A stretch of DNA of 39,381 bases from Chloroflexota bacterium. Its GTDB lineage: Bacteria; Chloroflexota; Anaerolineae; Caldilineales; Caldilineaceae. The stretch is taken from assembly GCA_003577005.1 (NCBI GenBank), contig QEUW01000025.1, positions 1 to 39,381 of the forward strand. Reading direction: 5' to 3'. The translations under genes were made by a program, and so were the position numbers. Below are positions 2,295-24,605 of the stretch, piece after piece. Below the pieces are notes generated by a model that did no database searches, was not told the origin of the DNA, and saw only the letters and a program-made list of their open reading frames with translations. The stretch's first letter is position 1. The number at the start of each line of letters is the position of its first letter.

Positions 2295-2390
2295 GAGTAA
2301 TGAGTGATGAGTGACCAGTGATCAGTAAGACGCTATCCGTCCCTGCTCACTCCTCACCCCTCACTCATTACTCCTCACTCATCACTCGTT
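2295..2390. repeat. heptameric tandem repeat in inverted arms (GAGTGAT type)
   Basis: The left arm (2295-2329) is five 7-bp units: GAGTAAT, GAGTGAT, GAGTGAC, CAGTGAT, CAGTAAG. The right arm (2349-2390) is six units of the complementary type, ACTCCTC, ACCCCTC, ACTCATT, ACTCCTC, ACTCATC, ACTCGTT. The arms can fold into a long imperfect hairpin between the SBP stop and the permease start, filling almost the whole 108-bp gap. Confidence 0.85.
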
Positions 2391-2393
2391 ATC

Positions 2394-3353
2394 ATGGCAA
2401 AGTACGTCCTCCGGCGGCTGCTGCTCGCCATCCTCACCATCTTTGGCGTGACCATCGTCATCTTTCTGGCGATGCGTGTGCTGCCAGGCGACCCGCTGGC
2501 GATGATCTACGGCGAGGCCACCGGCATCTATGTCCTGTCGGAGGCCGAGTTGCAGGCGGCGCGCGCCAGCCTCGGCCTGGACAAGCCGCTGCACATGCAA
2601 TATCTGAGTTGGATGGCCGATGTGTTCCGCGGGGATCTGGGTTACTCATTCTGGGTCGATACACCGATCCGTGACACGATCCTACGGCGCGGCCCGATTA
2701 CGGCGGAGATCGCCCTGTTGTCGATCCTGTTGTCTTGGCTGATTGGCGTGCCGGTGGGGATCATCAGCGCGCTGTGGCGTGAATCGACGTTGGACTATAT
2801 CCTGCGCTTCCTGGTCACCTTGTTTATGGCGATCCCTAGCTTTTGGTTGGGGCTGGCGATGATCCTCTTTACCGTCCTGGTCTTCAACTGGCGGCCATCG
2901 ATCACCATTGTGCAACTGTGGGACAATCCCAGAGAAAACCTGCTCATGGTCGTTGGGCCGTCGATTGCCATTGGCACAGGCATTGCTGCGCTTATCGCCC
3001 GCATGACGCGTACAACCGTGCTCGAAACCTTGCGCGAAGATTATGTGCGTACGGCCAGAGCCAAGGGATTGGGCCAGTGGATGGTTATCTTTCGTCACGT
3101 GCTTAAGAACGCGATGCTGCCGGTGATCACGCTGTCGGGGCTGGCATTGGCCGGGCTGTTGGGCGGTGCGGTGGCAGTGGAACGGGCCTTTGGCTTTCCG
3201 GGGCTTGGCTCCGCGCTGGCGCAGGGAGCCGTCGAACGCGACTGGATGATGGTGCAGAACCTGACCCTGCTTTTTGCCGTTATCTTTGTCTTTATCAACC
3301 TGGCGATTGACCTGCTCTACGCCTGGGTGGACCCGCGCATCCGCTATGAATAA
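2394..3353 (+). CDS. ABC transporter permease, DppB/OppB type
   Basis: 319 aa integral membrane permease. The N-terminus (YVLRRLLLAILTIFGVTIVIFLAMRVLPGDP in outline) is the usual first membrane span plus the LPGDP block of DppB-type subunits. The cytoplasmic EAA loop reads EDYVRTARAKGLG near residues 213-225 and would contact the ATPase. Five further hydrophobic segments follow the first. Length fits the family (about 310-340). No Shine-Dalgarno is visible because the heptamer repeat runs up to 3 bp before the ATG; translation may depend on coupling or on an unstructured leader. It is the second gene of the importer operon, followed 12 bp later by the partner permease. Confidence 0.93.
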   Translation: MAKYVLRRLLLAILTIFGVTIVIFLAMRVLPGDPLAMIYGEATGIYVLSEAELQAARASLGLDKPLHMQYLSWMADVFRGDLGYSFWVDTPIRDTILRRGPITAEIALLSILLSWLIGVPVGIISALWRESTLDYILRFLVTLFMAIPSFWLGLAMILFTVLVFNWRPSITIVQLWDNPRENLLMVVGPSIAIGTGIAALIARMTRTTVLETLREDYVRTARAKGLGQWMVIFRHVLKNAMLPVITLSGLALAGLLGGAVAVERAFGFPGLGSALAQGAVERDWMMVQNLTLLFAVIFVFINLAIDLLYAWVDPRIRYE

Positions 3354-3365
3354 CGAGGAACCTGT

Positions 3366-4280
3366 ATGACGACACGGGGAGCCGCCGCTATCGACCAGCC
3401 CGCTCTGCCGCAGCGGCTGGATGTGGGCAAAGGCCCGTGGGAGCCGTTTCGTCGCTTTGTCGCAACATCCAGACTGGGCGCAGTGTCGGCGGCCTTCCTG
3501 GTGCTGCTAGTGGCGATCGCCCTCTTTGCCGACCAGGTGGCGCCGTACCATCCGCTGGAGGCAGACTTTCGTGCGCTGCGGCGCCCGCCCTCCATCGGCC
3601 ACTGGCTTGGCACCGACAACCTGGGCCGCGATGTGCTGAGCCGGTTGATCCACGGGGCGCGCATCTCGCTGTCGGTCGCCATCGTCTCTACGGTGCTGAG
3701 CAAGTTGATCGGGGTGGCGTGGGGTATTGCCACCGGCTATATCGGGGGCTGGTTCGACCTGGGCAGCCAGCGCGTGATCGATGTGTTGCTGGCGTTTCCG
3801 GGCATCATCCTGGCGATGTTGCTCCTGGCCGCGCTGGGAGGCGGCTTTGGCACAGTGGTCTTTGCCATCACGCTGTTGGGCATTGCGGGAACGGTGCGCG
3901 TCATCCGTTCGGTGGTTCTGTCCGTGAAGGAGATGGCCTACGTGGAGGCGGCGCGCGCCATTGGCGTCTCGCACACGGGGATCATGTTCAAGCATGTAGC
4001 GCCCCAATGCATCGCACCGGCGCTGGTCTTGTTTAGCGCGTCACTCGGCGGGGCGATCTTTGCCGAGGCGGCCCTGAGCTTTTTGGGGTTGGGCATCCCA
4101 CAGCCGTTGCCGAGCTGGGGCAACATGTTGGGCGGCGTGCTTGCCAACCAGTTCCGCCCCGAGTGGTGGCTGGTCATCTTCCCCGGCGTGGCGATCACGG
4201 TCACCATCCTGGCCTTCAATCTGGTGGGCGACGCCCTGCGCGACCATCTGGACCCCAAGCTGAGGGGGCGGCTGCAGTGA
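3366..4280 (+). CDS. ABC transporter permease, DppC/OppC type
   Basis: 304 aa second permease of the importer. The N-terminal cytoplasmic part is followed by a first span (FLVLLVAIALFADQVAPYHP) and the HWLGTDNLGRDVLSRLIHGARISL block diagnostic of DppC-type subunits. The EAA loop is KEMAYVEAARAIGVS around residues 187-201. GAGGAA precedes the ATG with normal spacing, 12 bp after the upstream stop. No ATP-binding subunits follow: the operon ends in a short palindromic repeat and the next gene runs the other way, so DppD/DppF-like ATPases must be supplied from elsewhere. Confidence 0.93.
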   Translation: MTTRGAAAIDQPALPQRLDVGKGPWEPFRRFVATSRLGAVSAAFLVLLVAIALFADQVAPYHPLEADFRALRRPPSIGHWLGTDNLGRDVLSRLIHGARISLSVAIVSTVLSKLIGVAWGIATGYIGGWFDLGSQRVIDVLLAFPGIILAMLLLAALGGGFGTVVFAITLLGIAGTVRVIRSVVLSVKEMAYVEAARAIGVSHTGIMFKHVAPQCIAPALVLFSASLGGAIFAEAALSFLGLGIPQPLPSWGNMLGGVLANQFRPEWWLVIFPGVAITVTILAFNLVGDALRDHLDPKLRGRLQ

Positions 4281-4282
4281 GA

Positions 4283-4319
4283 ATTAACAATTGTCAATTG
4301 TCAATTGACAACTGTTAAT
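4283..4319. repeat. short CAATTGT-type heptamer palindrome
   Basis: ATTAACA (4283-4289) pairs with TGTTAAT (4313-4319). Between and overlapping them are the 7-bp units CAATTGT, CAATTGT, CAATTGA, CAACTGT (4288-4315). It sits 2 bp after the permease stop, between convergent genes, where it could act as a hairpin terminator. Confidence 0.75.
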
Positions 4320-4331
4320 GAGGTGTCCCTG

Positions 4332-5279
4332 CTACATGACTACCTTGTCCGCGTGTCTCTCACCATCGGCCAGAGACGCACCACGCAACACCACCACATT
4401 CTCAAGGCGCACTCCGGCGCCTAGCTGGCAATTTTCCTCGATGTAGACATGTGGGCCGATGACACAATCCGGCCCGATGACCACACCCTCCTCAATCCGC
4501 ACCGGTGTGATAAAGCGCGTTCGGGCACCGACCTGGTCGGTCAGAATCACTTTTTGTAGGCCATCCAGCGCCAGGTAGTGACGGTTGAGCGCCAACAGGT
4601 CGGCGGCATTGGTCAGTTGGATGCGACGGTCGGTGAGTACGCCGGTGACGCCGCCATCGTGTTCGATCAGCAGTTGGATGGCGTCTTGCAATTCGTATTC
4701 ACCCCGTGGCGAGAGAGGCACCGCAGGCAGGTGGGCAAGGATGCGGGGGCTGAAGACATAGAGCGGCAGGCTGGAGATGTTGGACGGCGCCTCTTCCGGC
4801 CTGGGTTTTTCGACCACTCGTCCCACCCAGCCATCTTGCCAATCGACGATGCCGGTGCTACTCGCCTGGGCAATGTCGATAGGCATGAGGCTGAGCGTTG
4901 CCAGGGCATTGCGGCTGCGGTGGGCGGCCAGCAACTCGGCTACATGCCCATTGGGGGTTAGGTTGTCGCAGGCGGAGAGGACAAAGTCACCGCCGATAAA
5001 AGGCGCCGCCAGACCCAGTGCGTGGGCCATCCCCAACCGTTCGGGTTGGACGACAAAGCGGATGTCCAGCTCCGGCCGCATCCGCTCGAAGTGGGGTACG
5101 ATCTCTGGGTCTTCCGGGCTGACCAGCACGATGAACTCGCTGACGCCATTGGCGGCCAGCATATCGATCACTCGTTCGACCATCGGCTTGCCCGCCACGG
5201 GCGCCATCGCCTTGGTGCGCCGAGTGGTGACCGGGTGCAGCCGCTTCCCCTTGCCCGCGGCAAGAATGATGCCTTGCAT
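4332..5279 (-). CDS. sugar-1-phosphate nucleotidyltransferase with hexapeptide C-terminus
   Basis: 315 aa, predicted to transfer a nucleotidyl group from NTP to a sugar-1-phosphate in the cytoplasm. Residues 2-30 carry the nucleotide-binding signature LAAGKGKRLHPVT followed by the K of TKAMAPVAGKPM. VVEKPRPEE lies in the sugar-binding region. The last 55 residues repeat I-G-x-x motifs (VIGPDCVIGPHVYIEENC), a left-handed beta-helix like GlmU and related enzymes. The ATG at 5279 has GGAG upstream and starts exactly at the domain; a longer reading frame to 5375 would lie in repeat sequence. It lies downstream of the GHMP kinase on the same strand, so its likely substrate is that kinase's product. 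Nucleotide and sugar specificity are not visible. Confidence 0.88.
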   Translation of the reverse strand: MQGIILAAGKGKRLHPVTTRRTKAMAPVAGKPMVERVIDMLAANGVSEFIVLVSPEDPEIVPHFERMRPELDIRFVVQPERLGMAHALGLAAPFIGGDFVLSACDNLTPNGHVAELLAAHRSRNALATLSLMPIDIAQASSTGIVDWQDGWVGRVVEKPRPEEAPSNISSLPLYVFSPRILAHLPAVPLSPRGEYELQDAIQLLIEHDGGVTGVLTDRRIQLTNAADLLALNRHYLALDGLQKVILTDQVGARTRFITPVRIEEGVVIGPDCVIGPHVYIEENCQLGAGVRLENVVVLRGASLADGERHADKVVM

Positions 5280-5305
5280 ACATGCTCCGTGCTCAGAGAG
5301 TAGAT

Positions 5306-5399
5306 TAGACCGCGGATTGGGGAGGTTCAGCGGGCTGGCGCGAATCAAGATCCGCCAAGATCCGCCAAAATCCACCGCATCCGCCCGATCCGCGGTCTA
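5306..5399. repeat. inverted repeat with degenerate GATCCGCCAA tandem units
   Basis: A perfect 12-bp inverted repeat, TAGACCGCGGAT (5306-5317) and ATCCGCGGTCTA (5388-5399), encloses tandem near-10-bp units based on AAGATCCGCC (about 5347-5390). It sits in the gap between the kinase and the nucleotidyltransferase. It has the same general architecture as the heptamer elements elsewhere in the window but a different unit. Confidence 0.75.
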
Positions 5400-5405
5400 T
5401 AGTGG

Positions 5406-6641
5406 TTAGCTCAACAGTTGTGCTGCGTCAGCGGATTGGCAAAAGTGGATGCTATAGCGGTCGGCCATCTCTGGATGGGCGCGCGGGTAGCGGCGGTGGA
5501 GGTGTTCGGCGATGGGTTCGCGCTGCGCCGGGTCGATGAGCGCCAGGCAGTTGCCGCGGAAACCGGCGCCGCTAAAACGGACACCGTAGACGCCGGGCGT
5601 CTCGCGCAAGATCTGGTAGAGCGAGATCAGTTGCGGGCAGCCGCACTCATAGTTGGCGATGGAACTGGCGCCGGAGGCTGAGACCAATTCGCCAAAGCGA
5701 GCAAGATCACCGGCGCGCCAGGCCGCCTCACCTGCTTCCACCCGCTCCATTTCGGTAAAAAAGTGGGTCGCCCGGCGGCGCAGCGGCTCCTCCAGGCGTG
5801 AGCCGTAGGCGGCGAAGATGGCTGGATCGACCTCGCGCAGCCGTGGCGAGGTGACGTTCTCCTGACCGGCGTAGGTGAGCAGTTGGCTCGCCGCGGCCTG
5901 GCATTCGGCCACTCGATTGTTGTAGCTCGTCCCTACCAGCGCCCGATCCACCCCAGAATAAACCGCCATGATCGCAAAGCTGCCGGTTGGCGCCGCAGTG
6001 GGGACGCGCTCGATCCGCACCGTCTGGCAATCGATACGGGTCAGGTGGTTGCACTGGCTAAAGAGGATCGAGGTCTGGTCGAGGATGCCGTTGTTGAGCC
6101 CGATGTACTCATGCTCCGTTCGGGTGACGAGCGCGATATTTTCGTTCGGGGATTTCTCCAGACCGTTGGCGCTCTCCAGCGCCAGCAGATAGGCGATGGT
6201 GACCGCCGCCGACGAACTCAGCCCGCCGATAGGCATGTCGCTGTCCATCACACCGGCGATACCGTGGGTAAGCCGGTGGTCGCGCTGCAAGGCGAGCACA
6301 GCGCCACGGAGATAGTTGCCCCAATCTCCTTTCTGATAGGGCGGGACAGTGTCAAGCTGAAAGTGGGTGGGCGTCTCAAAGTTCAGGCTTTCGACAAAGA
6401 CAGAGCCATTGGCCGTGGGTGCAAAGGCCAACAGGATGGCCCGGTCTATGGCCATGCCCATGACACGGCCAAGTTGGTGGTCAATATGCGCGCCCAGCGG
6501 GCTGATACGCAAAGGAACCCGTACAACGCGGCCGACAGCCGCTGTATCGGGGGCAATCTCTCGCAGCCGTGCAAGGAGGCGCTCGATGCGCTCGTGCTCT
6601 GGCTGTGCGTTACGAACGGGAGGATGCGTCATAAGTTTCAT
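5406..6641 (-). CDS. GHMP kinase, galactokinase superfamily; galacturonokinase-like
   Basis: 411 aa sugar 1-kinase. Motif 1 reads SPLGAHIDHQLGRV (galactokinases have GEHxDY), motif 2 is PIGGLSSSAAV with the phosphate-binding Ser/Ala loop, and motif 3 is SGAGFRGNCLAL near the C-terminus. The GAHIDHQ variant, the GILDQTSIL segment, SASGASSIANYECG and YGVRFSGAGFRG match, as I recall it, the plant D-galacturonate kinase rather than GalK, so galacturonate (or another uronate) is the likely substrate. Start: ATG at 6641 or the ATG three codons later (6632); neither has a clear Shine-Dalgarno. The predicted promoter lies at 6693-6720. A sugar-1-P nucleotidyltransferase follows, so the pair could convert a free hexuronate to its NDP form. 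Ordinary galactokinase remains the alternative. Confidence 0.88.
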   Translation of the reverse strand: MKLMTHPPVRNAQPEHERIERLLARLREIAPDTAAVGRVVRVPLRISPLGAHIDHQLGRVMGMAIDRAILLAFAPTANGSVFVESLNFETPTHFQLDTVPPYQKGDWGNYLRGAVLALQRDHRLTHGIAGVMDSDMPIGGLSSSAAVTIAYLLALESANGLEKSPNENIALVTRTEHEYIGLNNGILDQTSILFSQCNHLTRIDCQTVRIERVPTAAPTGSFAIMAVYSGVDRALVGTSYNNRVAECQAAASQLLTYAGQENVTSPRLREVDPAIFAAYGSRLEEPLRRRATHFFTEMERVEAGEAAWRAGDLARFGELVSASGASSIANYECGCPQLISLYQILRETPGVYGVRFSGAGFRGNCLALIDPAQREPIAEHLHRRYPRAHPEMADRYSIHFCQSADAAQLLS

Positions 6642-6692
6642 TCAGACAAGGCGCGGTTGTTGTTCATCGATCAGTTGGTGCTACACAAGCTC

Positions 6693-6720
6693 ATTATAGC
6701 ATGCGTGGTTCAGGGTGCAA
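6693..6720 (-). promoter_or_regulatory. extended -10 promoter of the GHMP kinase operon
   Basis: On the minus strand TGCTATAAT (perfect -10 at 6698-6693 with the TGn extension) is preceded by TTGCAC (6720-6715) at 16 bp. The expected start near 6686 gives a leader of about 45 nt before 6641. Confidence 0.55.
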
Positions 6721-6791
6721 CTGTGTGGATTCAAGAGCGCAGGGATCTCAAAAGTGGCGAATCTCGCTGCAATCTGACTTCCGGGAGATGA

Positions 6792-6938
6792 CCAACAGAT
6801 TTGTTGAAGATTGTCCTGACCGGCAGAGGCTTTGCCGCTGCGGATGGCATTCCAGCCAACCTCAGGCTCTGCCCACGCAGCACCTGGAACGAGCGTATGC
6901 TCATCGCGACGACCCTCTCGTTGGTGACGATGGTCTAG
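6792..6938 (+). pseudogene. DDE transposase C-terminal remnant
   Basis: One frame of this gap reads KIVLTGRGFAAADG, then IPANLRLCPRSTWNERM, then LIATTLSLVTMV and a TAG stop (6936-6938). The order of the (D)xGF segment, PxNLKLC, G/STWNxRMLIET and LSxLT(x)V is how I remember the C-terminal catalytic region of a group of bacterial IS transposases, including the place of the last acidic residue. Here that residue appears changed (IAT where IET is usual). A TGA lies just upstream (6789-6791) and there is no start, so this is a decayed 49-codon fragment. It fills the otherwise empty gap between the kinase promoter and the toxin-antitoxin promoter. No inverted repeats or target duplication were identified around it. 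Confidence 0.6.
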
Positions 6939-6983
6939 GAGGTTGAAGAAAGTCTTTCGCTGTTACGCTGGGCTCGCTAGGCC

Positions 6984-6994
6984 TGTGGTATAAT
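6984..6994 (+). promoter_or_regulatory. extended -10 promoter of mntA-hepT
   Basis: TGTGGTATAAT, a perfect -10 with the TGn extension, lies 48 bp before the mntA ATG. No good -35 is visible. The same 11-mer is found upstream of the acyl-CoA ligase (22136-22126, minus). Confidence 0.55.
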
Positions 6995-7042
6995 CATGAT
7001 CGTTAAGCAGGTGTGGTGTAACGATTTAAATGGAGATAGAGA

Positions 7043-7336
7043 ATGAAACGAGCCGAGGCATTGCAGCGGTTATCGACACACCGTGAAGAATTGCGTAAAC
7101 AATTTGGCGTAGTATCGCTGGCGCTATTTGGTTCCACAGCGCGCGATGAAACAACGCAGCATAGCGATGTCGATCTACTGGTCGAATTTGATCGCCCCAC
7201 TGGTCTATTTGGCCTATTGCGCTTGCAATTTCACCTGGAGGAATTGCTGGGCTGTCCAGTGGACCTTGGTACGCTTGATGGGCTGAAGCCACGCATCCGT
7301 GACCGTGTGTTGGCGGAAAGCATCCATGTCAACTAG
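7043..7336 (+). CDS. mntA: MntA-type minimal nucleotidyltransferase antitoxin
   Basis: 97 aa. It carries the exact GSx10DxD motif of MNT proteins (GSTARDETTQHSDVD, residues 30-44) followed by LLVEFDRP, the nucleotidyltransferase core with two metal-binding aspartates. In characterised MntA-HepT (type VII) systems the antitoxin adds AMP to a tyrosine of the HEPN toxin and thereby silences it. The toxin gene follows with an 11-bp overlap, as expected for a cotranscribed pair. GGAG lies upstream of the ATG. A transposase fragment lies immediately upstream, consistent with an acquired module. All motif residues are present, so the antitoxin is probably active. Confidence 0.88.
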   Translation: MKRAEALQRLSTHREELRKQFGVVSLALFGSTARDETTQHSDVDLLVEFDRPTGLFGLLRLQFHLEELLGCPVDLGTLDGLKPRIRDRVLAESIHVN

Positions 7337-7682
7337 ATCATCGCGTGAACGAATCCTTGATATTCTTGAGTCCATCGAGGAAATTCAGCAATTTGTTGCC
7401 AGCATGACCTTTGATCAATTTCAGGCTGATCGCAAGACAATGAAGGCAGTCATGGCCGATTTTGCCATTATGGGTGAAGCCGCCGGTCACCTGCCTGAAT
7501 CGCTAACCGAGCAGCACCCAACTGTGCCTTGGTCGATCATGCGCGCCATGCGTAACCGGTTGGTACATGTCTATTTTTCGGTCTCTCCCCTGATCTTGTG
7601 GGATACCATTCAACAAGATCTGCCGGCACTGGTGGGGCCCTTGCGACAAGTGCTGGTCGACCTGGATGATGATGGTGGCTGA
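7326..7682 (+). CDS. hepT: HEPN-domain toxin (HepT, DUF86)
   Basis: 118 aa from the ATG at 7326, inside the end of mntA; the homology-like part STRSSRERILDILESIEEI begins here, so earlier in-frame starts are unlikely. Near residue 75 it has RNRLVHVYF, a complete RX4HXY HEPN motif: the Arg and His form the RNase active site and the Tyr is the residue modified by MntA in studied systems. Expected role: an RNA-cleaving toxin neutralised by the neighbouring nucleotidyltransferase. Length fits DUF86 proteins. The downstream gene is convergent, 46 bp away. Confidence 0.88.
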   Translation: MSTRSSRERILDILESIEEIQQFVASMTFDQFQADRKTMKAVMADFAIMGEAAGHLPESLTEQHPTVPWSIMRAMRNRLVHVYFSVSPLILWDTIQQDLPALVGPLRQVLVDLDDDGG

Positions 7683-7728
7683 ACTTACCGCGTTGGGATT
7701 CAAAGAGCGATAGGACGAGCGCGTATTT

Positions 7729-8712
7729 CTACTCCATCGGATACTTCATCCTCCACTGCGCCCGGATAGCGTCCATCGTCTGCATGATGGACAGGCTCTC
7801 GTCCAGCGTCATGATGTCGCTTTCGAGCTTGCCGGCGCGGACACAGTTTGCTACTTCGGCGGCCTCGTAGTTGTAGCCGTTGGCCTCGTAGGGGATCTCC
7901 ACTTCCTGGGCGCCTCTGCCGGCGATGGTGAGCGTCATCTTGTTGGGGATCCAGAAGGGCGGGTGGATGCGGATCATGCCGTTCTCGCCCATGATTATAG
8001 CCTCCTGCGGCGTCGATGTGCGCACGGCGGTGTAGAGGATCGCCAGCTCGCCACCAGGATAGCCCAGGATAAAGGCCGATTGCTCATCCACGCCGGTTTG
8101 CCCCAGGTCAGCCAGCCCGGTGATGCGATCGGGTGTGCCCAGGAGCATGGAGGCCAGCGAGATGGGATAGACACCCACGTCGAGCAGCGCGCCGCCGCCC
8201 AGCGCAAGGTCAAAGGCGCGGCTCTCGGGCCGGAAGCCGGCGCGGTAGCCGAAATCGGCGGACACCATCCGCACCTTACCGATCGCGCCATCGGCGATCA
8301 ACCGCCGCACTTCTGCCATGAGGGGAATGAAGCGGGTCCACATTGCTTCCATCAAGAAGAGCTTGCGCTCTCGCGCCTCGTTGATGATCACCTGCGCTTC
8401 GGCCGCGTTGATCGTAAACGGCTTCTCGCACAGGACGTGCTTGCCGGCGCGTAGAGAAGTCAGCGTGTTCTCTTTGTGCATAGGGTGGGGTGTCGCCACG
8501 TAGATGGCGTCCACCTCCGGGTCGGCGGCCAGCGCCTCGTAACTGGCGTGGCGGTTGCGGATGCCAAACTCGTCGGCAAAGGCGTCGGCCCGGGCCTGAT
8601 CGCGTGACCCGACGGCTATCACTTCATGGTCGGCCAACGCCTGGACGCCGGTGACAAACTTGCGGGCAATGTTGCCCGGCGCCAGGATTCCCCAGCGAAA
8701 CTTTGTACTCAT
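7729..8712 (-). CDS. Gfo/Idh/MocA family NAD(P)-dependent oxidoreductase
   Basis: 327 aa. The N-terminal Rossmann fold starts with [35 protein letters not shown] follows, and the family EKP motif is at residues 96-98 (HVLCEKPF). The C-terminal alpha/beta domain contains the expected [15 protein letters not shown] stretch with the Asp/His-region residues used in sugar and cyclitol dehydrogenases. It probably oxidises or reduces a sugar or inositol derivative in the cytoplasm; the substrate cannot be read from sequence. AAAGG precedes the ATG. It is 28 bp downstream of the kinase gene on the same strand and may be cotranscribed with it. Confidence 0.9.
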
Positions 8713-8740
8713 GGATTGCCTTTCAGCAGGGTATTGTGTT

Positions 8741-9745: not shown

Positions 9746-9858
9746 ACAAAAACTCCTACCTTGGACAGGTGAACCAATCCGATCAGGTTGCGCTACAGCG
9801 GAGTACGGGAATCATTTGTGTCGAGCCGGTAGCCACCGGCGAAGTTTCTATAACAGAC

Positions 9859-9887
9859 ATTATGCGATAGACTGAAAAAAGTGTCAA
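9859..9887 (-). promoter_or_regulatory. sigma70-type promoter of the Ser/Thr kinase gene
   Basis: On the minus strand TTGACA (9887-9882), a 17-bp spacer and CATAAT (9864-9859). The expected leader is about 105 nt. It lies in the divergent region shared with the FHA gene, for which no comparably clear promoter was seen. Confidence 0.7.
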
Positions 9888-9962
9888 CTCGGTTGAAAGT
9901 ATCGTTCGGCTAGTCGAGGCTTCTAACGAGTAATCGGCGGTTTTGCTCAGAAAGGATGCAGT

Positions 9963-16550: not shown

Positions 16551-16559
16551 CAGGCAAGG

Positions 16560-17096: not shown

Positions 17097-17098
17097 CT

Positions 17099-17773: not shown

Positions 17774-18549
17774 CTCAACAAGCCCAATCCTTTGACCCCG
17801 TAGAAGCCAGCCAGATGACGCTCATGGAGCATCTCAACGAGCTCCGCGTGCGTCTGATGTGGGTGGTCGCCAGCCTCTTTGTCGGCACCATGTTGGCGTT
17901 TGTTTTTGCGCGGCCGCTTCTCCAGTTTATCCGCACGCCGCTTGATGATAGCGCGCTGTTGATTGCCATCGGCCCCACCGATACGATTATCAATGTCTTC
18001 AAAGTGAGCTTTATGGTGGGTGCTTCGCTTTCTATGCCCATCATCGTCTACCACCTAGTCGCTTTTGTGATGCCGGGTCTCTACCCCCACGAGAAGCGCA
18101 ATTTGCTGATGGCCTTGCCGGCGATCATGGCCCTCTTTATTGGGGGGATGGCGTTTGCGTTCTATGTGATGTTGCCGGTTGCTATCTCCTTTCTCCAGGG
18201 CTTTCTGGGCGATCTGATCGAACAGACCTGGACGTTTGACAAGTATGTGGGGTTTATTACGCGCGTCGTCTTTTGGATTGGCGTCTCGTTTGAAACACCC
18301 GTCGTGCTGGCCTTTCTGGCGCGGGCAGGCATCGTCAGCGGCCAGCAACTGCTGGCTTATTGGCGCCATGCGATCGTCGTCATCGCGATTGTCGCCGCTA
18401 TTATCACGCCTACCATCGACCCGGTCAATATGACGATTGTTATGGCGCCGTTGATCGTGCTCTATTTTTTCAGCGTGGGGCTGGCCCATCTTCTCTACCG
18501 CCCACGCGTGCCGCGCGACTTCTCGGAGGAACCGTTTATCAAGGAGTGA
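17770..18549 (+). CDS. tatC: Sec-independent protein translocase TatC
   Basis: 259 aa polytopic membrane protein, the signal-peptide receptor of the twin-arginine export pathway. The diagnostic N-terminal MTLMEHLNELRVRLMWV is present, six hydrophobic spans follow, and FxF/E-containing loops such as VGASLSMPIIVYHLVAFVMPGLYPHEKR and VSFETPVV match the family. The start ATGA overlaps the tatA/B stop. The stop TGA (18547-18549) is part of the first unit of a repeat element. Confidence 0.97.
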   Translation: MTQQAQSFDPVEASQMTLMEHLNELRVRLMWVVASLFVGTMLAFVFARPLLQFIRTPLDDSALLIAIGPTDTIINVFKVSFMVGASLSMPIIVYHLVAFVMPGLYPHEKRNLLMALPAIMALFIGGMAFAFYVMLPVAISFLQGFLGDLIEQTWTFDKYVGFITRVVFWIGVSFETPVVLAFLARAGIVSGQQLLAYWRHAIVVIAIVAAIITPTIDPVNMTIVMAPLIVLYFFSVGLAHLLYRPRVPRDFSEEPFIKE

Positions 18550-18622
18550 TGCGTAATAGTAATGCGTAATGCGTGATACGTGATTAAGGCATTAGGCATT
18601 ACGCATCACGCATTACGCATCA
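18547..18622. repeat. TGCGTAA-type heptamer element in inverted arms
   Basis: TGATGCGTAAT (18547-18557) and ATTACGCATCA (18612-18622) form a perfect 11-bp inverted repeat. The interior is tandem 7-bp units, TGCGTAA and TGCGTGA on the left and ATTACGC, ATCACGC, ATTACGC on the right. It starts with the tatC stop codon and ends 4 bp before the next gene. Confidence 0.85.
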
Positions 18623-18626
18623 AACC

Positions 18627-18827
18627 ATGCCTGACCGCTTTGACTTGATCGCCCGCAAGCAGGAAGTGCGCCGCCTGATCGAGCAGGTGCAACGGCAGTT
18701 GGAGGCGGAACGGGCAAAAAAGCCGGCCCCCGACCGTCGACGGCTCAACCAGTTGGAACGCCGGCTTGAACAGTTGATGGCGGAAGAGTACAACTTGCGC
18801 GTTGCCATTGACCAGACCAGACGGTAG
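18627..18827 (+). CDS. small coiled-coil protein of unknown function
   Basis: 66 aa, highly charged and almost entirely helical in appearance (RKQEVRRLIEQVQRQLEAE, then RRLNQLERRLEQLMAEEYNLR) with leucine-type heptads, so a short coiled coil is likely. I do not recognise a family. It lies directly after the tatC repeat element on the same strand and before a GC-rich hairpin, so it looks like the last gene of the fabG-nusB-tat operon. No good Shine-Dalgarno is visible because the repeat abuts the start. Confidence 0.6.
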   Translation: MPDRFDLIARKQEVRRLIEQVQRQLEAERAKKPAPDRRRLNQLERRLEQLMAEEYNLRVAIDQTRR

Positions 18828-18871
18828 GGGGCCCTCACTGATAATCGATAGAACAACCCGGCAGTAGGAGA

Positions 18872-18905
18872 GGGGCGGCGGCAAACGCCGCCCCTGGCCT
18901 TTTGT
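18872..18905 (+). terminator. GC-rich hairpin terminator
   Basis: GGGGCGGCG (18872-18880) pairs with CGCCGCCCC (18886-18894) around a 5-nt loop, followed by TGGCCTTTTG. The T tract is short, so termination is probable but not certain; it ends 3 nt before the next ATG. Confidence 0.65.
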
Positions 18906-18907
18906 GA

Positions 18908-19705
18908 ATGGCTATGACACAGACCCTATTTGACGTTGTTCTGCTTGCCGGTCAAGACCCTGGCCACCCGGACCCCCTGGCAGTGGAAAATGGCGTCGCC
19001 AACAAGGTGCTCATCCCAGTGGCTAATCAGCCCATGATCGAGCACGTGTTGGAGGCCCTGGCCGGCAGCCCTATGATCGACCACATTCTCATCGTCGGCC
19101 TGGAGGCGTATGATAGAATTTCCACCAGTGGCAAAATTTACTATCTGTCTGGACAGGGGACGATTTTCGATAACGTCATCAGTGGCTTCGCCTGGCTGGC
19201 CGAACGCGTCTCACCCGCTCGCCATGCCCTGGTGCTCAGTGGTGACCTCCCGTTGATCACCAGCGCACAGGTCGATTGGTTTTTACACGCCTGCCAGCCG
19301 CTGGACAAGGATGTCTATTGGGGGATCGTCGAGCGTACCACGATGGAAAAGACCTTTCCGGAGAGCCGGCGTAGCTATCTTCCTCTGATCGAAGGGCGCT
19401 TCTGCAATGGCGGGATCTATCTGGCGAAGATCGAGGCAGCGCTGAGACGGCAGGCGCTTATCGGCCAGCTGATCGAGCAGCGCAAACATATCTTTCGCCA
19501 GTTATGGATGCTGGGGCCGGGCGTGATCCTCAAATTTTTGTTGCGCCAACTCCAGATCTCCGACCTGGTGGGGGTGATGGAGCGGTTGCTCGGTGTACGC
19601 GGCGAAGTTGTCATCCTGCCCTTTGCTGAAACGGGCATGGATGTGGACAAACCCCACCAGTTGGCGCAGGTGCGCGCCTATCTTGACCGCTTTCCCCGCA
19701 ACTGA
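18908..19705 (+). CDS. MobA/GlmU-like NTP-transferase domain protein
   Basis: 265 aa. The fold is that of small nucleotidyltransferases: LFDVVLLAGQDPGHPDP at the start in place of the canonical LAAGxGxR, then KVLIPVANQPMIEHVLEAL, ALVLSGDLPLIT (the metal-binding Asp region) and a late GMDVDKPHQLAQVRAYL. The usual Gly-rich loop with its Arg is not preserved, so substrate use may differ from MobA or IspD. Function unknown; sugar or cofactor nucleotidyl transfer is inferred. The hairpin 3 nt upstream leaves no Shine-Dalgarno; ATG 18914 is an alternative start. A PAP2 phosphatase follows after 12 bp. Confidence 0.8.
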   Translation: MAMTQTLFDVVLLAGQDPGHPDPLAVENGVANKVLIPVANQPMIEHVLEALAGSPMIDHILIVGLEAYDRISTSGKIYYLSGQGTIFDNVISGFAWLAERVSPARHALVLSGDLPLITSAQVDWFLHACQPLDKDVYWGIVERTTMEKTFPESRRSYLPLIEGRFCNGGIYLAKIEAALRRQALIGQLIEQRKHIFRQLWMLGPGVILKFLLRQLQISDLVGVMERLLGVRGEVVILPFAETGMDVDKPHQLAQVRAYLDRFPRN

Positions 19706-19717
19706 GCCGAGGGGCAA

Positions 19718-20290
19718 ATGGGTGACGCTTTCCGCTCTCTGTTGTGTCTGCTGGATGAGTGGGACAGATCCCTGTCTATGCGTATCGCTCTCGGCAACGG
19801 GACGCATTCGTGGCGCTACTGGCTTGCGCGCACCTGCGCCCATTTGGGCGATAGCTGGCTGTGGGGCCTCGTCACGATCTGGCTGCTACGGGATGCCGTT
19901 CGCAAACAGGCTGAGGATGGCAGTGTGCGCCAGCGACGCTTCTATGGCTGGTCGGTCAGCCTGGCTGTGCAGATCATCCTGACGTTAACGTTCAAACAAC
20001 TTGTACGCAGGAAGCGGCCAAGGATCGATTCATTCTTATACGGCAGAGGGCCAGATGAACATAGCTTTCCCAGCGGCCACGCCATGCGCATGGCCGTCAT
20101 TGCCGTTTGGTCCACCCAGCTCTGGCCAGGGTGGGGGTGGCTGCTCTGGCCCCTCACTGTGCTCATCGGCTGGTCTCGTGTCCGTCTGGGTATTCACTAC
20201 GTGGGCGATGTGGTCGCCGGCTGGTTGCTTGGCGCGGCAATCGCTGGCCTTGTGCAATTGTGGCAGCGGAGACGTGGGAGGGGAGAGTAG
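19718..20290 (+). CDS. PAP2-family membrane phosphatase
   Basis: 190 aa membrane enzyme. The three PAP2 signature motifs are complete: KQLVRRKRPR, PSGHAM and SRVRLGIHYVGD. Multiple hydrophobic spans surround them. Likely hydrolyses a lipid phosphate such as undecaprenyl diphosphate or phosphatidic acid at the outer membrane face. GAGGGG precedes the ATG. Its last codons and stop (TAG 20288-20290) lie inside a palindromic repeat shared with the convergent acyl-CoA ligase. Confidence 0.9.
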   Translation: MGDAFRSLLCLLDEWDRSLSMRIALGNGTHSWRYWLARTCAHLGDSWLWGLVTIWLLRDAVRKQAEDGSVRQRRFYGWSVSLAVQIILTLTFKQLVRRKRPRIDSFLYGRGPDEHSFPSGHAMRMAVIAVWSTQLWPGWGWLLWPLTVLIGWSRVRLGIHYVGDVVAGWLLGAAIAGLVQLWQRRRGRGE

Positions 20291-20347
20291 GGAATGGGAT
20301 TGGAGGGGCCGCTCCATTCTCTACTTCTCATTCCCCACCCCCTACTC
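20285..20347. repeat. GAGTAGG/GGAATGG-type element spanning two gene ends
   Basis: GAGTAGG (20285-20291) is complementary to CCTACTC (20341-20347), with further imperfect pairing between GGAATG (20291-20296) and CATTCC. The arms contain the stop codons of both convergent genes (PAP2 and acyl-CoA ligase), so it could serve as a two-way terminator. Confidence 0.6.
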
Positions 20348-22078
20348 GGCAACCTTCTCTTTCTGTTTCTCTTTCTCTCCTTCGACCAGGAGGCGGCGTA
20401 ACACTTTGCCTGCCAGACTTTTGGGCAACTCCTGGCGGAATTCGATCTGGGTTGGCACCTTATAGGGAGCGAGATTCTCTTTGCAGAAGGCGCGAATCTC
20501 TGTGTCGGTCACAGAATGGCCTTCTTTGAGCACTACAAAGGCTTTGACCGTCTCTCCGCGCCGGGCATCGGGCACACCAGCGACGGCAGCTTCCCGGACA
20601 GCCGGGTGCGTAAAGAGCACCTCTTCCACCTCGCGCGGCACCACATTATAACCGCTGGCGATGATCAAGTCCTTCTTCCGGTCCACGATGTAGAAGTACC
20701 CATCCTCATCCATGCGGGCGATATCACCGGTGAGGAGCCAGCCGTCGGTGGTGAGGGCTTGAGCCGTCTCGGCGGGGCGATTCCAGTAGCCTTTCATCAC
20801 TTGTGGACCGCGGATTGCCAGTTCGCCTTCCTGACCCAGCTCCAGCGGCTGGTAGCGCCCGTTGGCGTCCGGCTCCAGGGCGACAATGCGGACCTCGGTG
20901 TTGGGCAAGGGCAGGCCAATTGAGCCCACGCGCGCCTCGCCGTTGATGGGGTTGGCTACGGCCACCGGAGATGATTCGGTCAAGCCATACCCCTCCACCA
21001 GCCGGCCCCCGGTGATCTCCATAAATTTCTGGGCGACTTCCACCGGCAGGGCGGCCGCCCCACTGAGGCAGGCCTTGATGGAGTGCAGGTTGTATTCCTT
21101 GACTTTGGGGTGGTTGATGATCCCCACATACATGGCCGGTACACCGGGATAGATGGTGATCTTTTCGTTCTGAATGATCTCGAGCACCAGGTTGAGGTTA
21201 CGCGGGTCGGGCGTAATGATCAACTCTGCGCCGGTGGAGAGGCCAAAGAGCATGGCTACGGTCATGCCATAGACATGGAAGAAAGGGAGAGCGCCCAGCA
21301 CCTTTTCTTTGCCCGCCTCGGCAGTGGCAAACCAGGCTTGCATCTGAGCCGTGTTGGCGACCAGATTGCGGTGGGTAAGCATGGCTGCCCTGGGTGTGCC
21401 GGTCGTACCGCCGGTGTACTGAAAGAGCGCCACATCATCCGGCTCGATGGGTACACGCGAAGGTCGAGCGCCTGCCTCTTTGAGCAGCGCATCAAAGTCA
21501 TAGATCCCGGGCGCAGAAGGCACATCCTTCATGATGCCGCTAGCGCGCACCTGTTTCTCGACCAGCCGGTTGAACGGCCACCCCAAAGTCGCCGGGATAT
21601 CGGCGATGATCATATGCTTGACCGGCGTATGTTCGCGAATTTGCGCCAGCCGGTCATAAAGGCCACTGAGCAATATGATGGTCTCGGCGCCGCTATCACT
21701 CAATTGATGTTGCAGTTCGCGCGGCGTATACGTGGGATTGGTGCTGACGACGGTAGCGCCGGCCTTTAAGGCGCCAAAATAGGCGATCACCAGTTGGGGG
21801 ATGTTGGGCATCATGATCGCCACCCGATCCCCCTTACGCACACCCAGTTTCTGTAAGGCGGCGGCAAAGCGGTCGGTGGCCTCGTCCAACTGGCGATAGG
21901 TGAAGGTCGATTGGATCTTGATCCCCAACGGTAGGTACTTCAAGACAAACCGCAGCGCAGTATGGTTAGGATATTTTTGCGCAGAATCGACCAACAATTG
22001 AGGCAAGGGAATATCGGGAATCGTGACCGAGGTGGGCACCCCGTTTTCGTAATGGGCGAACCAGGGATGTGTGGACAT
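20342..22078 (-). CDS. long-chain acyl-CoA synthetase (AMP-forming)
   Basis: 578 aa; activates fatty acids to acyl-CoA through an acyl-adenylate. The AMP-binding P-loop is YTGGTTGTPRAAMLTHRN; GYGLTESSP, the TGDIARMDEDGYFYIVDRKKDLI hinge region and the C-terminal PKSLAGKVLRR with the catalytic lysine are all intact. It ends in a Lys/Glu-rich tail that overlaps the repeat. The ATG at 22078 has an excellent AAAGGAGGAG. An extended -10 (TGTGGTATAAT) lies 48 bp upstream. Substrate chain length is not predictable; FadD-like is the best match. Confidence 0.93.
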   Translation of the reverse strand: MSTHPWFAHYENGVPTSVTIPDIPLPQLLVDSAQKYPNHTALRFVLKYLPLGIKIQSTFTYRQLDEATDRFAAALQKLGVRKGDRVAIMMPNIPQLVIAYFGALKAGATVVSTNPTYTPRELQHQLSDSGAETIILLSGLYDRLAQIREHTPVKHMIIADIPATLGWPFNRLVEKQVRASGIMKDVPSAPGIYDFDALLKEAGARPSRVPIEPDDVALFQYTGGTTGTPRAAMLTHRNLVANTAQMQAWFATAEAGKEKVLGALPFFHVYGMTVAMLFGLSTGAELIITPDPRNLNLVLEIIQNEKITIYPGVPAMYVGIINHPKVKEYNLHSIKACLSGAAALPVEVAQKFMEITGGRLVEGYGLTESSPVAVANPINGEARVGSIGLPLPNTEVRIVALEPDANGRYQPLELGQEGELAIRGPQVMKGYWNRPAETAQALTTDGWLLTGDIARMDEDGYFYIVDRKKDLIIASGYNVVPREVEEVLFTHPAVREAAVAGVPDARRGETVKAFVVLKEGHSVTDTEIRAFCKENLAPYKVPTQIEFRQELPKSLAGKVLRRLLVEGEKEKQKEKVAE

Positions 22079-22125
22079 GGCTCCTCCTTTTGCTCAACCT
22101 GGCACAGACATTGGGACTCCGTTCA

Positions 22126-22136
22126 ATTATACCACA
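22126..22136 (-). promoter_or_regulatory. extended -10 promoter of the acyl-CoA ligase
   Basis: TGTGGTATAAT on the minus strand (22136-22126), identical to the mntA promoter core; no clear -35. The expected leader is about 42 nt. Confidence 0.55.
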
Positions 22137-22239
22137 TCGTAGACTCTTGGCGTAGAATGCCATCGAGAGGTAAGGCAAGATGCCATCTTGCTCGCGCTTG
22201 TCTACCTCCCTGCGGAGGTCCCGGCCAGATTCGGCGGCT

Positions 22240-22268
22240 TTGCAATTTCATTCAGTTCGTGTTACACT
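22240..22268 (+). promoter_or_regulatory. probable promoter of the LysM protein gene
   Basis: TTGCAA (22240-22245), a 17-bp spacer and TACACT (22263-22268), with a leader of about 86 nt before the ATG at 22361. It is divergent from the acyl-CoA ligase promoter. Confidence 0.45.
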
Positions 22269-22360
22269 TGTGCGACATGCCAACCACCCACCCGTGCAGC
22301 CACCCAGCGCAGCTGTCCGCCAAGATCGAAACTCGAACCACCAGGTTTTGACCGCAGGCT

Positions 22361-23515
22361 ATGTACGAAGTCACCTGCTTCCATTGTGGCCATCTTGCCC
22401 ACATTTCGCCTGACGTGGAGCGCTGCGCGGTCTGCGGCGCCGATTTGCGCCACTTGATCACGCCTGATTACGCAGCCCGTTACTTTTACGACCGTGCAGC
22501 TCAAATGGCTGCTGCCGGCGAGTTGACACTTGCGCTTCTGGAGGTTGAACGCGGGCTGGCCTACCAGCCGAGTTCAGAGCTGCACCTGTTGGCGGCCATC
22601 CTTGCCCAACGCCTGGGAGACCAGGACCAGATGCGCCGCCATGTCTCGTCCATCCCGGTCGATGATGTGCTGCGACCCGAGGCCGAATGGTTGCTCCGCT
22701 CGCAACAGACGGGGTTGCGTTCGCTGCCGGAGACGCGGCACTCCGCCGTTGCCCGGGCGGCCCAGGGGCCGGCGCCGCCCGCTTGGCTTTCCGAACCTCC
22801 GGTTGTAGCGGCAAGAGTTGAACGCCCCACAGCCGCGCGCGCCAATCCCGTGCTCTACGGTGCGGTGGCTGTGGCGCTTGGGCTGTTTGTTCTGTGGCTG
22901 GCCCTTGAGCCGATTGCCGATGTCTTGCGCCGCAACTGGTCAGCGGGGAACGCCGGAACTGCTCAAAATACCCCCACGCCAACCGTAGATCTTGCTAACG
23001 ACACAACGGCCACCCCTGGCGCCGGAGCTGATCCCGCCGTTCCCACTACAGAGCCTTCTCCCACACCGGAGGTTCCACCCGATCTGGTGCAGCCGGTGGC
23101 GCCCCAAGAGCCGGTCGCAGGCGTCACGCCCATCCTGCCCGATCAAAGTAGCTTTGACCTGCAAGGATTCCTCGCCCAGACCAATCGCCCAGACCTGGCT
23201 GACCTAGAGGTCGTGGCGCTGCTCCAGGGGACGACGCTCAAGCTTCAGGGCGTTGTCCAACTCTTTGACCAGCGCGCATCGATCATTGAGCTGGCCGCTC
23301 GCGCACCCAATGTCACCGAAGTAGATGCCACCAACCTGATCATCCGCCTGCCCGAAACTTACACGGTGCAGGAAGGGGAGTCGCTCTGGACTATCAGCTA
23401 CAAGCTGTACGGAACAAATCGGGTGGCCGAGCTGTACGACGCCAATCGGAGCACACTGACATCGCCCGAGGCGATTCGGGTGGGGCAAACGCTTACAGTT
23501 CCAGTGGTGGAATAA
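22361..23515 (+). CDS. zinc-ribbon, single-span membrane protein with extracytoplasmic LysM domain
   Basis: 384 aa. The N-terminal zinc ribbon (Cys6, Cys9, Cys22, Cys25) is followed by a helical TPR-like stretch (about 45-110) and a Pro/Ala linker. One transmembrane span lies near 165-185 (LYGAVAVALGLFVLWLAL). Next come a Thr/Pro-rich linker, a BON-like alpha/beta stretch (LEVVALLQGTTLKLQGVV through LIIRLP) and a C-terminal LysM (YTVQEGESLWTISYKLYG...VGQTLTVP). The likely topology is zinc ribbon inside and LysM outside bound to cell wall glycan, so it could link a cytoplasmic complex to the wall. Function is not known. It ends in a heptamer array, convergent with the aminotransferase. Confidence 0.82.
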   Translation: MYEVTCFHCGHLAHISPDVERCAVCGADLRHLITPDYAARYFYDRAAQMAAAGELTLALLEVERGLAYQPSSELHLLAAILAQRLGDQDQMRRHVSSIPVDDVLRPEAEWLLRSQQTGLRSLPETRHSAVARAAQGPAPPAWLSEPPVVAARVERPTAARANPVLYGAVAVALGLFVLWLALEPIADVLRRNWSAGNAGTAQNTPTPTVDLANDTTATPGAGADPAVPTTEPSPTPEVPPDLVQPVAPQEPVAGVTPILPDQSSFDLQGFLAQTNRPDLADLEVVALLQGTTLKLQGVVQLFDQRASIIELAARAPNVTEVDATNLIIRLPETYTVQEGESLWTISYKLYGTNRVAELYDANRSTLTSPEAIRVGQTLTVPVVE

Positions 23516-23616
23516 CAGTGAGGAGTGATCAGTAGCCCGTGCATTATACCTATCACTCCTCACTCCTCACTCCTCACTCATCACTTCTCACTCATCACTT
23601 CTCACTCATCACTGAT
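23516..23616. repeat. nine-unit CACTCAT-type heptamer array with short inverted arm
   Basis: Nine consecutive 7-bp units run from 23554 to 23616: CACTCCT three times, then CACTCAT and CACTTCT alternating, ending CACTGAT. An oppositely oriented arm, AGTGAGGAGTGATCAGTAG (23516-23534), allows hairpin formation. The unit is the same as in the 2295-2390 element. It fills the gap between convergent LysM and aminotransferase genes. Confidence 0.88.
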
Positions 23617-23618
23617 GA

Positions 23619-24485
23619 TTATGTTGGATAGAGTTGTTCGGTAGAGCGGAGCTGGTCAGCCCGAACATAGGCGCGGAAGAGATCGCCTAATCGCTGCGTG
23701 CGCGGACCGGGCCGGCCCTGCCCGATGCGCTGTTGGTCTACCTGAACGATGGGGAGAATCTCTTTGGTCGAACTGGTGATAAAAAGCTCGTCAGCCGTAA
23801 GCACCTCGTCATATCGAAGCGCCGATTCCACCACCTCGAACGAGTCGGCGGCGATTTCCATCACGACGGCTCGTGTAATGCCCAAGAGCACATTGTCACG
23901 CGGCGTAACCAGCCGGTCGCCGTAGAAAGCAAAAAAGTTGGAACGGGTGCATTCGCTCACCTCGCCCGCAGCGTCGCAGTAGAGCGCCTCGACGGCGCCG
24001 GCTCGATCCGCTTCTTTCATCGCCATGATGGCGCCGATATAGTTCAGGCTCTTGACCCGGGGCAGAAAGCGTGCCATTTCCACACTGATGAGCCTGGCCC
24101 CGTGCTCATATTCTTCCGGCGGATTGGGCGCCACCGGCTCGACCATGACGACCAGGCTTGGCCTGCCCTGTGGGGTCATAAAATTGGGTGAGGCCCCACC
24201 GGTCACGACAATACGGATCGTTGCGTTTGCCAGGCTATTGCGCCGGTAGGTTTCGCGCGCAATGGCCTCGATCTCGTCTACGCTCCCAGGTAATTCCAGC
24301 CCAATCGCCTGCGCCGAACGCTCCAGCCGTTCCACATGTTCGCGCAGCTTGAACGGCATCCCGTCATAGGTGCGCAACAGGTCAAAGACGCCATACCCAC
24401 GTACGAGACCCAGGTCGTTGAGTGGCAGCGCAGCCTCGGCTGCCGGCATATAGTTGCCGTTGACATAGTAGAGCGAACGATTCAT
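23619..24485 (-). CDS. PLP-dependent class IV aminotransferase (branched-chain / D-amino acid type)
   Basis: 288 aa. LYYVNGNYMPAAEAALPLNDLGLVRGYGVFDLLR is the fold-type IV N-terminus. The catalytic Lys lies in RVKSLNYIGA, GEVSECTRSNFFAF holds the cofactor-binding Glu and Ser/Asn, and LLGITRAVV and LFITSSTKEI complete the family. It transfers amino groups from branched-chain or D-amino acids, or is an aminodeoxychorismate lyase-like enzyme; the sequence does not decide. The ATG at 24485 fits the domain start; a frame to 24512 adds nine unmatched residues. It is probably downstream in the proA transcript, separated by a repeat element. Confidence 0.9.
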   Translation of the reverse strand: MNRSLYYVNGNYMPAAEAALPLNDLGLVRGYGVFDLLRTYDGMPFKLREHVERLERSAQAIGLELPGSVDEIEAIARETYRRNSLANATIRIVVTGGASPNFMTPQGRPSLVVMVEPVAPNPPEEYEHGARLISVEMARFLPRVKSLNYIGAIMAMKEADRAGAVEALYCDAAGEVSECTRSNFFAFYGDRLVTPRDNVLLGITRAVVMEIAADSFEVVESALRYDEVLTADELFITSSTKEILPIVQVDQQRIGQGRPGPRTQRLGDLFRAYVRADQLRSTEQLYPT

Positions 24486-24502
24486 GGGGCACCCCACCGG
24501 TC

Positions 24503-24605
24503 TAATTGCCAATGGTCAATGTTAAACGGTCAATTGTTGATGATAAACTCCGGAAGGCGGCGAAGCACTGACGATTGATGAGTGTCAATTGTCAATTGCC
24601 AATTA
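24503..24605. repeat. CAATTG-type inverted repeat element overlapping the proA stop
   Basis: TAATTGCCAAT (24503-24513) opens the left arm with TCAATG and TCAATTG units. The right arm has TCAATTG, TCAATTG and CCAATTA (ending 24605). The units match the 4283-4319 element. The proA TAA stop (24605-24603, minus) is part of the right arm. Confidence 0.75.

Follow-up and report, generated by a model that had tools for sequence, protein, structure and literature searches.

The STRR heptamers (short tandemly repeated repetitive sequences) of cyanobacteria are tandem, dispersed over the genome and divided into several unit families. Repetitive extragenic palindromes (REPs) and bacterial interspersed mosaic elements (BIMEs) are intergenic stem-loops present in many copies, past stop codons and inside operons; REPs are fixed palindromes with a GTAG or GGAG head, and in E. 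coli they act at a gap between binding-protein and permease genes (the malE-malF role). The present analysis concerns seven intergenic elements, most of them built of short tandem units in inverted arms, in a stretch of 39,381 bases from a Chloroflexota bacterium of the Caldilineaceae (contig QEUW01000025.1), referred to here in its whole length as the window. The sites belong to a known but unexplained class, the bacterial intergenic heptamer repeats, in an inverted-arm form; the initial annotation had named STRR as the nearest parallel, and the heptamer repeats of cyanobacteria and of other bacteria are indeed the closest. The reading we prefer, at a probability of about 60%, is that the elements are dispersed, non-coding, REP-like intergenic hairpins which slip in steps of 7 bp and are perhaps stem-loops at mRNA 3' ends.

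Heptamer repeats have long been noticed in distant bacteria, and the accounts cited here give, in the parts relevant to this work, no settled explanation of why the unit is seven, how the repeats spread or what role they have. Repeats of the GGGAATC and GGGGA(C/T)T types have been described in Xanthomonas and Nostoc (Rehm et al., 2015, PMC4692102). In Xanthomonas, the G-rich strand reads away from the open reading frame (ORF), the repeats lie mostly ≤50 bp from ORF ends, and two sites occur in convergent orientation in 70 cases (Xcc) and 75 cases (Xac) (PMC4692102). Three tandem heptanucleotides of Calothrix PCC 7601 are also cited there. The TAACTGA direct repeats of Beggiatoaceae are intergenic heptamers found in distant phyla as well, and the indels in heptamer repeats between two related Cyanothece strains are mostly of 7 nt (MacGregor, 2015, PMC4679880).

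Period-7 Arrays in the Window

Arrays were scanned for as runs of matches and mismatches at lag p (threshold 11, runs of N excluded from the counts), with 200 dinucleotide shuffles of the window as control. Period 7 gave seven arrays, against a mean of 0.01 and a maximum of 1 in the shuffles, so the enrichment proposed in the initial annotation survives its shuffled-sequence control. Its multiples 14 and 21 gave three and two arrays, periods 6, 9, 10, 12, and 13 gave one each (equalled in 8, 8, 5, 1, and 2 of the 200 shuffles, respectively), and the remaining periods from 3 to 20 gave none. The seven arrays fall in five sites, at 2295 (site 1), 4283 (site 2), 18547 (site 4), 23516 (site 6), and 24503 (site 7), where lag-7 identity ranges from 0.53 to 0.77 and none of 500 shuffles per site was as high. 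Tandem 7-bp units beyond chance, as in intergenic heptamer repeats of the STRR or GGGNATC type, are therefore present in the window. Fold z-scores against 200 shuffles were −7.7, −4.0, −4.5, −6.9, −2.2, −4.9, and −1.4 for sites 1–7 in order. Neither the window nor the seven loci searched alongside it matched any Rfam family at the gathering score.

Seven heptamer elements with inverted arms had been proposed. Short tandem units in inverted arms were present at most of these places, all of them in gaps between genes, but the heptamer description applies to five sites, since site 3 (5306–5399) has a period of 10 and site 5 (20285–20347) is weak at lag 7. The inverted-arm architecture likewise holds at most sites; 24503–24605 is not counted as a significant hairpin because its fold z is only −1.4. 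The CAATTGT-type unit almost equals its reverse complement, so direct and inverted arms are indistinguishable at 4283–4319 and 24503–24605.

All seven sites lie 0–9 bp from a neighboring gene's stop codon, which at sites 4, 5, and 7 belongs to the element itself; four lie in same-strand gaps, three in convergent gaps and none in a divergent gap. Such a position past stop codons, the ability to form stems and the three convergent gaps would suit plain intrinsic transcription terminators that are incidentally repetitive. This is very unlikely, given that neither the 2 terminator-like matches within 2200–5500 nor the 11 within 18450–24700 overlap the elements, that site 1 stands inside an operon-like gene pair, and that the arms exceed the usual terminator stem in length. 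The intrinsic terminator (a GC stem followed by a T run) was rejected as a class, with no terminator-like match on any of the seven sites.

Dispersal of Heptamer Units in Related Genomes

Among protein relatives of the window with a named source, the best were from Caldilineaceae and other Chloroflexota. The nearest genome found was that of the Caldilineaceae isolate CHL12 (G001, via locus L001), which is syntenic with parts of the window; it was found by alignment, while scanning genome contigs with a single aminotransferase had yielded no relative. Genes in relatives are longest-ORF guesses made by script. In 50 unselected stretches of G001 (508,650 bases) there were 17 period-7 arrays against 0.3 in shuffles, and unselected stretches of the Trueperaceae genome G008 (397,900 bases) held 23 against 0.3. 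Stretches of a further genome, G015, were picked from places with known heptamer matches.

In these relatives a given unit was shown to return at many sites of one genome. Nine of the 17 G001 arrays are of GACGATR types, and a search of the whole G001 genome gave 431 overlapping GACGATR matches and none for the reversed control pattern, while 51 of 61 genomes had no GACGATR match. The TCACTCR unit peaks in G015 (79 matches, against 17 in G001) and is matched in 12 of the 61 genomes. Dispersal in many copies was seen in both the sister genome G001 and G015.

The GTGATGA family of G015 was compared over 22 inverted elements at 21 places, one place being listed twice; apart from that place the outer flanks are unrelated. 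A loop core is common to 9 of the 21 places in either orientation (≤3 mismatches over 13 bases); a conserved core together with a target-site duplication would mark miniature inverted-repeat transposable elements. A 22-nt probe made from the loop core had 45 matches in G015, in both orientations, and four in G011, G031, and G034, where the arms are of GTGAAGC, GTGAAAC, or GTGCTGC types. The recurrence of GACGATR in G001 and the loop core of G015 indicate that copying of one form or another has spread at least some of the families. It had been argued that a shared form with unshared sequence speaks against copying; that argument is not supported, given that units within a genome are not independent (GACGATR in G001, the 45 core matches in G015).

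Two other repeat arrangements were observed. The TAGCAGR-type units, which had served as the reversed control pattern, have 65 matches in G019 and 42 in G025 and make up another genome-specific heptamer family. At L240 in G008, four identical heptamer blocks (12281, 12366, 12451, and 12536) are spaced at exactly 85 bp, the heptamers being nested inside a longer tandem unit.

Change of Units and Arms at Orthologous Gaps

The gap that holds site 1 (2286–2393), between an ABC transporter substrate-binding-protein gene and a permease gene, is occupied in G001 by a hairpin whose heptamers are of a different unit, GACGATA/GACGATG, with a fold energy of −42.4 kcal/mol. At this gap the units are TCACTC in the window, GACGATR in G001, and ACGATTT in G015. 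It was compared in 30 relative loci in which permease identity ranges from 39 to 93%, and given the low end of this range the lower-identity loci are probably paralogs. Among the 28 loci long enough to fold, 25 have z ≤ −2 and 22 have z ≤ −3, and by eye the hairpin sequences differ among relatives. Heptamers are detectable in G001 and G015, G038 has an 8-bp unit, G011 and G023 have degenerate CCCCAAT-like arms (by eye), and a group of eight loci has a common non-repeat hairpin. At this gap, the hairpin is usually kept while its sequence is not.

Change within the arms was seen in an orthologous element of G019 and G025, in which one arm is longer by 7 bp in G019 and the opposite arm is longer by 21 bp in G025. 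An orthologous element differing by whole heptads in each arm was shown once, this being the one such pair found. On one side of it is a gene that G015, G019, and G025 all retain, putatively for an alanyl-tRNA editing protein, and on the other a RAYT-like gene (REP-associated tyrosine transposase). The corresponding gap in G015 holds a GTGATGA-family element with the core, and GCGTATT-like heptamers stand upstream of the RAYT-like gene in G011, while no heptamers were found at that gap in G017 and G014, which have a similar-looking neighboring gene. For the 22 listed G015 elements, the longest arm-to-arm match averaged 17.1 in own pairs against 13.9 in swapped pairs, a difference reached in 0 of 5000 permutations; either fold-back copying or selection for pairing would explain this excess.

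These data bear on whether heptamer palindromes arise de novo wherever they stand, through slippage and fold-back synthesis, without being copied from one site to another. Units that differ among sites of one window and at one orthologous gap, arms that change in whole heptads, unrelated outer flanks within the G015 family and the 12 of its 21 places that lack the core all agree with this. It is nonetheless rather unlikely, because units are common to distant sites (9 of 17 GACGATR arrays in G001, 45 core matches in G015) and the G001 and G015 data point to units more alike within than between genomes. The earlier claim of local generation in place of copying stands as far as arms and units change in place, but not for the genome-specific families found at many sites. 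Copying versus local generation is too sharp a choice, as both occur: copying within genomes in at least some families, and change of the arms in situ.

Another explanation is that the elements are REPs moved by a genome-encoded tyrosine (Y1, HUH) transposase. A PF01797 match was present in 39 of the 61 genomes, and the RAYT-like protein of G015, used as a query, had a match in 29. Four of 13 folded loci have heptamers upstream of the gene (L396 of G015, with the family core, L398 of G019, L402 of G011, and L403 of G025). All four cases are one-sided, however, and since at least three of them represent one conserved gap, the heptamers may belong to the gap rather than go with the gene. In another five loci (L384, L387, L390, L394, and L395) the gene is surrounded by hairpins that are not heptameric, of the GTAG type in three cases, and the remaining four (L397, L399, L400, and L401) have no heptamers beside it. 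The elements also lack the fixed palindrome headed by GTAG or GGAG, their arms being variable heptads, and movement by such a transposase is distinctly improbable. As a separate observation, the RAYT-like genes L387 (G001), L390 (G025), and L395 (G031) carry on both flanks hairpins of the GTAGGTCACGCTACCAGCGTGAC or GTAGGTGCGG type that resemble classical REP/RAYT units, here in Chloroflexota.

Polarity of the Inverted Elements

Whether the G-rich or the C-rich arm lies on the left is independent of the strand read. It was scored in loci that included ten from G001 and eight from G015, chosen at known heptamer matches regardless of polarity. At threshold 12 there were 164 arrays in 138 clusters (in shuffled flanks, 11 of the 164 arrays found an inverted partner by chance), of which 62 clusters were G-rich-left and 4 C-rich-left, with four further clusters unscorable; two of the four C-rich-left clusters are from the cyanobacterium G009 and two from among 77 mixed-phylum loci. 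Setting the threshold to 11 and leaving out the mixed loci gave 65 G-rich-left cases among 68 inverted elements (window, G001, G015, G025, G008, and G009), the three exceptions all being from G009. By gap type, the G-rich-left share was 20/20 in convergent gaps, 34/36 in same-strand gaps, 2/3 in divergent gaps, 3/3 inside predicted ORFs, and 6/6 at contig edges. Where units differ in G and C by ≥1.5 per heptad, the G-rich strand was the left arm in 54 of 54 elements from 22 unit families, which include variants of one another, perhaps about a dozen being independent; units with a weaker or no G bias gave 12 to 5. Paired convergent arrays with the G-rich strand inward, as in the GGGNATC type, are thus present, and the window supplies three, all inward. 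It is shown by these counts that unit families vary by site and genome while inverted elements keep a G-rich left and a C-rich right arm.

Selection near start codons was rejected as the sole cause of this polarity, since it cannot act in convergent gaps, where the count is 20/20. Part of the bias is not specific to heptamers, as non-heptamer intergenic hairpins lean the same way (G-left to C-left 91:39 in G001, G015, and G025 together, and 16:6 in G008); the ratio was 13:24 in Tolypothrix G009 and 40:39 in Bacteroidota loci. A cruder test on perfect hairpins gave, for the period-7 class over all seven sets, 27 G-left, 4 C-left, and 4 equal, the C-left ones coming from the window (one), G008 (one), and G009 (two); its fit to the G-inward rule is looser than that of the array-based counts. 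The G-inward layout is already known for one Xanthomonas unit (PMC4692102), and its extension to many units is what is added here. No report of G-inward polarity across many units was found in the open-licence literature, in searches that were not aimed at polarity.

So constant a polarity could mark the way in which the arms are made: where DNA breaks or a fork stalls in a gap, heptads would be added to G-rich 3' ends, and inverted arrays with G inward, like fused telomeres, would result. The addition would proceed either through the purine strand folding back or through an enzyme akin to telomerase, copying an RNA template that varies from genome to genome. Each element would be a scar similar to two telomeres fused head to head, and its unit would be a signature of the template in that genome. 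Besides the agreement of all 22 unit families and of the convergent gaps, which are out of reach of start-codon selection, there is a precedent in bacterial reverse transcriptases that make tandem-repeat DNA off an RNA template (PMC12632851, preprint). Such templated or fold-back addition is nevertheless a slim prospect, both as an account of the elements and as the meaning of the polarity: the non-heptamer hairpins of G001, G015, G025, and G008 lean G-left too, the period-7 perfect hairpins do not all point one way (27:4), and the shared loops of G015 need copying of whole elements.

Proposed Origin and Role

Under the preferred reading of dispersed, REP-like hairpins, elements would be copied into new gaps, and slippage in steps of 7 together with fold-back copying from arm to arm would then remodel the arms, so that related species end up with different units. 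A stem-loop just past a stop codon may persist because it does no harm or because it is of use in shielding the 3' end of the upstream mRNA. A role in mRNA is suggested by position and by the recurrent hairpin between binding-protein and permease genes; it is most plausible at that gap, because most relatives keep a strong hairpin there with a mostly different sequence.

Several results weigh against this reading. Many of the arrays form no hairpin, 68 of the 138 clusters at threshold 12 having no inverted partner within 150 bp, and with exact 12-mers a partner was found for 6 of 17 arrays in G001 and 0 of 23 in G008. Site 7 is not a significant hairpin. The core is absent from 12 of the 21 G015 places, and seven GACGATR elements of G001 have loops of 0–12 bp with none in common, loops too short for a real test; these seven also show no own-arm excess (4143 of 5000 permutations). 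The proposal that the unit changes while its position is kept was borne out at the binding-protein/permease gap, but no heptamer array was found at the corresponding G001 gaps or gene ends scanned for the other six sites. Arrays occur in 5 of 198 sampled gaps in G001 (~2.5%) and 15 of 188 in G015 (~8%, a sample biased upward), so one shared gap could be due to chance; by simple multiplication, two independent arrays at the same gap are expected at ~0.002 per site. No mobilizing enzyme was found in a search that covered RAYT-like genes in the 61 genomes.

The analysis offers three handles on these repeats, namely a G-inward rule that holds across units, a countable core in one family, and a shared gap at which the unit is replaced and the hairpin remains. 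With them, a comparison of close strains could test whether heptamers are copied, made locally, or both.

Individual Sites and Their Gene Context

Site 1 (2293–2391) is a heptamer hairpin (lag-7 identity 0.66, 0/500 shuffles) with a left arm at 2293–2325 starting AGGAGTAATGAGTGATGAGTGA and a right arm at 2343–2391 of TCACTC/TTACTC units. It lies between the substrate-binding-protein gene (573–2285, plus strand), whose best model is of the GsiB type below the equivalog cut-off, and the permease gene (2394–3353, plus strand), which was used for locating the orthologous gaps; the element also ends 2–3 bp ahead of a start codon. Site 6 (23516–23616), in a convergent gap 3' of a LysM-protein gene, has a short left arm AGTGAGGAGTGATCAGTA (23517–23534) and a long right array of TCACTCC/TCACTCA heptamers (23553–23613). 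Sites 1 and 6 have AGTGATCAGTA in common immediately before the loop (2317–2327 and 23524–23534), and its nine-letter core GTGATCAGT was found beside heptamers in just one other locus examined, L329.

Site 2 (4283–4319) consists of CAATTGT heptamers, a nearly self-complementary unit (lag-7 identity 0.77), in a convergent gap 2 bp past the stop codon of a second permease gene. Site 4 (18541–18622) has TGATGCG/TAATGCG heptamers in both arms (0.70) and overlaps the stop codon of a TatC gene (18547–18549). At site 7 (24503–24605), TGTCAAT/CAATTGT heptamers (0.53, 0/500 shuffles; array at 24583–24604) overlap the stop codon of a minus-strand gene of the aldehyde dehydrogenase family (24603–25970). 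The units GAGTGAT, CAATTGT, TGATGCG, TCACTCC, and TGTCAAT of sites 1, 2, 4, 6, and 7 contain no GGG on either strand. Judged from their letters, these units have no G runs, and G-quadruplex repeats of the GGGNATC type were dropped as a candidate class.

The other two sites are not regular heptamer arrays. Site 3 (5306–5399), between galactokinase and nucleotidyltransferase genes that are both on the minus strand, is a hairpin whose units (ATCCGCCAAG) repeat every 10 bp; lag 10 scores highest (0/500 shuffles), while its lag-7 identity was equalled in 58 of 500. A ATAGACCGCGGATTGGG hairpin resembling it was found in the binding-protein/permease gap of G017 (L274). Hairpins with TAGACCGCGGATTGGG-like ends stand at unrelated gaps in the window and at L274, and they are perhaps a dispersed, non-heptamer family with a period near 10. 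Site 5 (20280–20347) is a degenerate purine/pyrimidine hairpin (GGGAATGG and CCCCATT-like arms) in a convergent gap, overlapping the stop codon of a PAP2 gene (20288–20290); its period of 7 is weak, with a lag-7 identity of 0.41 (4/500 shuffles) and higher values at lags 5 and 6.

Elsewhere in the window, three adjacent paralogous minus-strand genes of ~1,100 amino acids each occupy 28379–38516. Each carries a BTAD domain, an NB-ARC/AAA-type domain and TPR repeats, and their aligned DNA blocks are 60–86% alike.

Comparison with Described Repeats

Like REPs and BIMEs, the elements are intergenic stem-loops past stop codons and inside operons, in related genomes in many copies; unlike those of REPs, their arms are built of heptads and vary in both length and unit. 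With STRR they share tandem heptamers in several unit families, dispersed in related genomes, and the features described here beside those of STRR are inverted arms, loop cores and a change of unit at orthologous gaps.

The occurrence in Chloroflexota is in a phylum apparently outside the descriptions given for the Xanthomonas/Nostoc and Beggiatoaceae heptamers (PMC4692102, PMC4679880). With the TAACTGA repeats there is a likeness in intergenic heptamers across distant phyla and in 7-nt steps between relatives, but TAACTGA is described as a single unit that mostly sits a short way upstream of start codons, with one inverted case among 170 sets (PMC4679880). In the window, no site has the TAACTGA unit close upstream of a start codon; the units are others, the sites are at stop codons, and the arms are inverted. 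The Xanthomonas and Nostoc repeats are similarly dispersed heptamer arrays, mostly intergenic, with convergent pairs; they are described as having one G-run unit type per genome, able to form G-quadruplexes, and in Xanthomonas 83% are in the same gene context between two species (PMC4692102). The elements reported here, in contrast, have many units, most of them without a GGG run, which change between relatives, and in G015 they carry a loop core.

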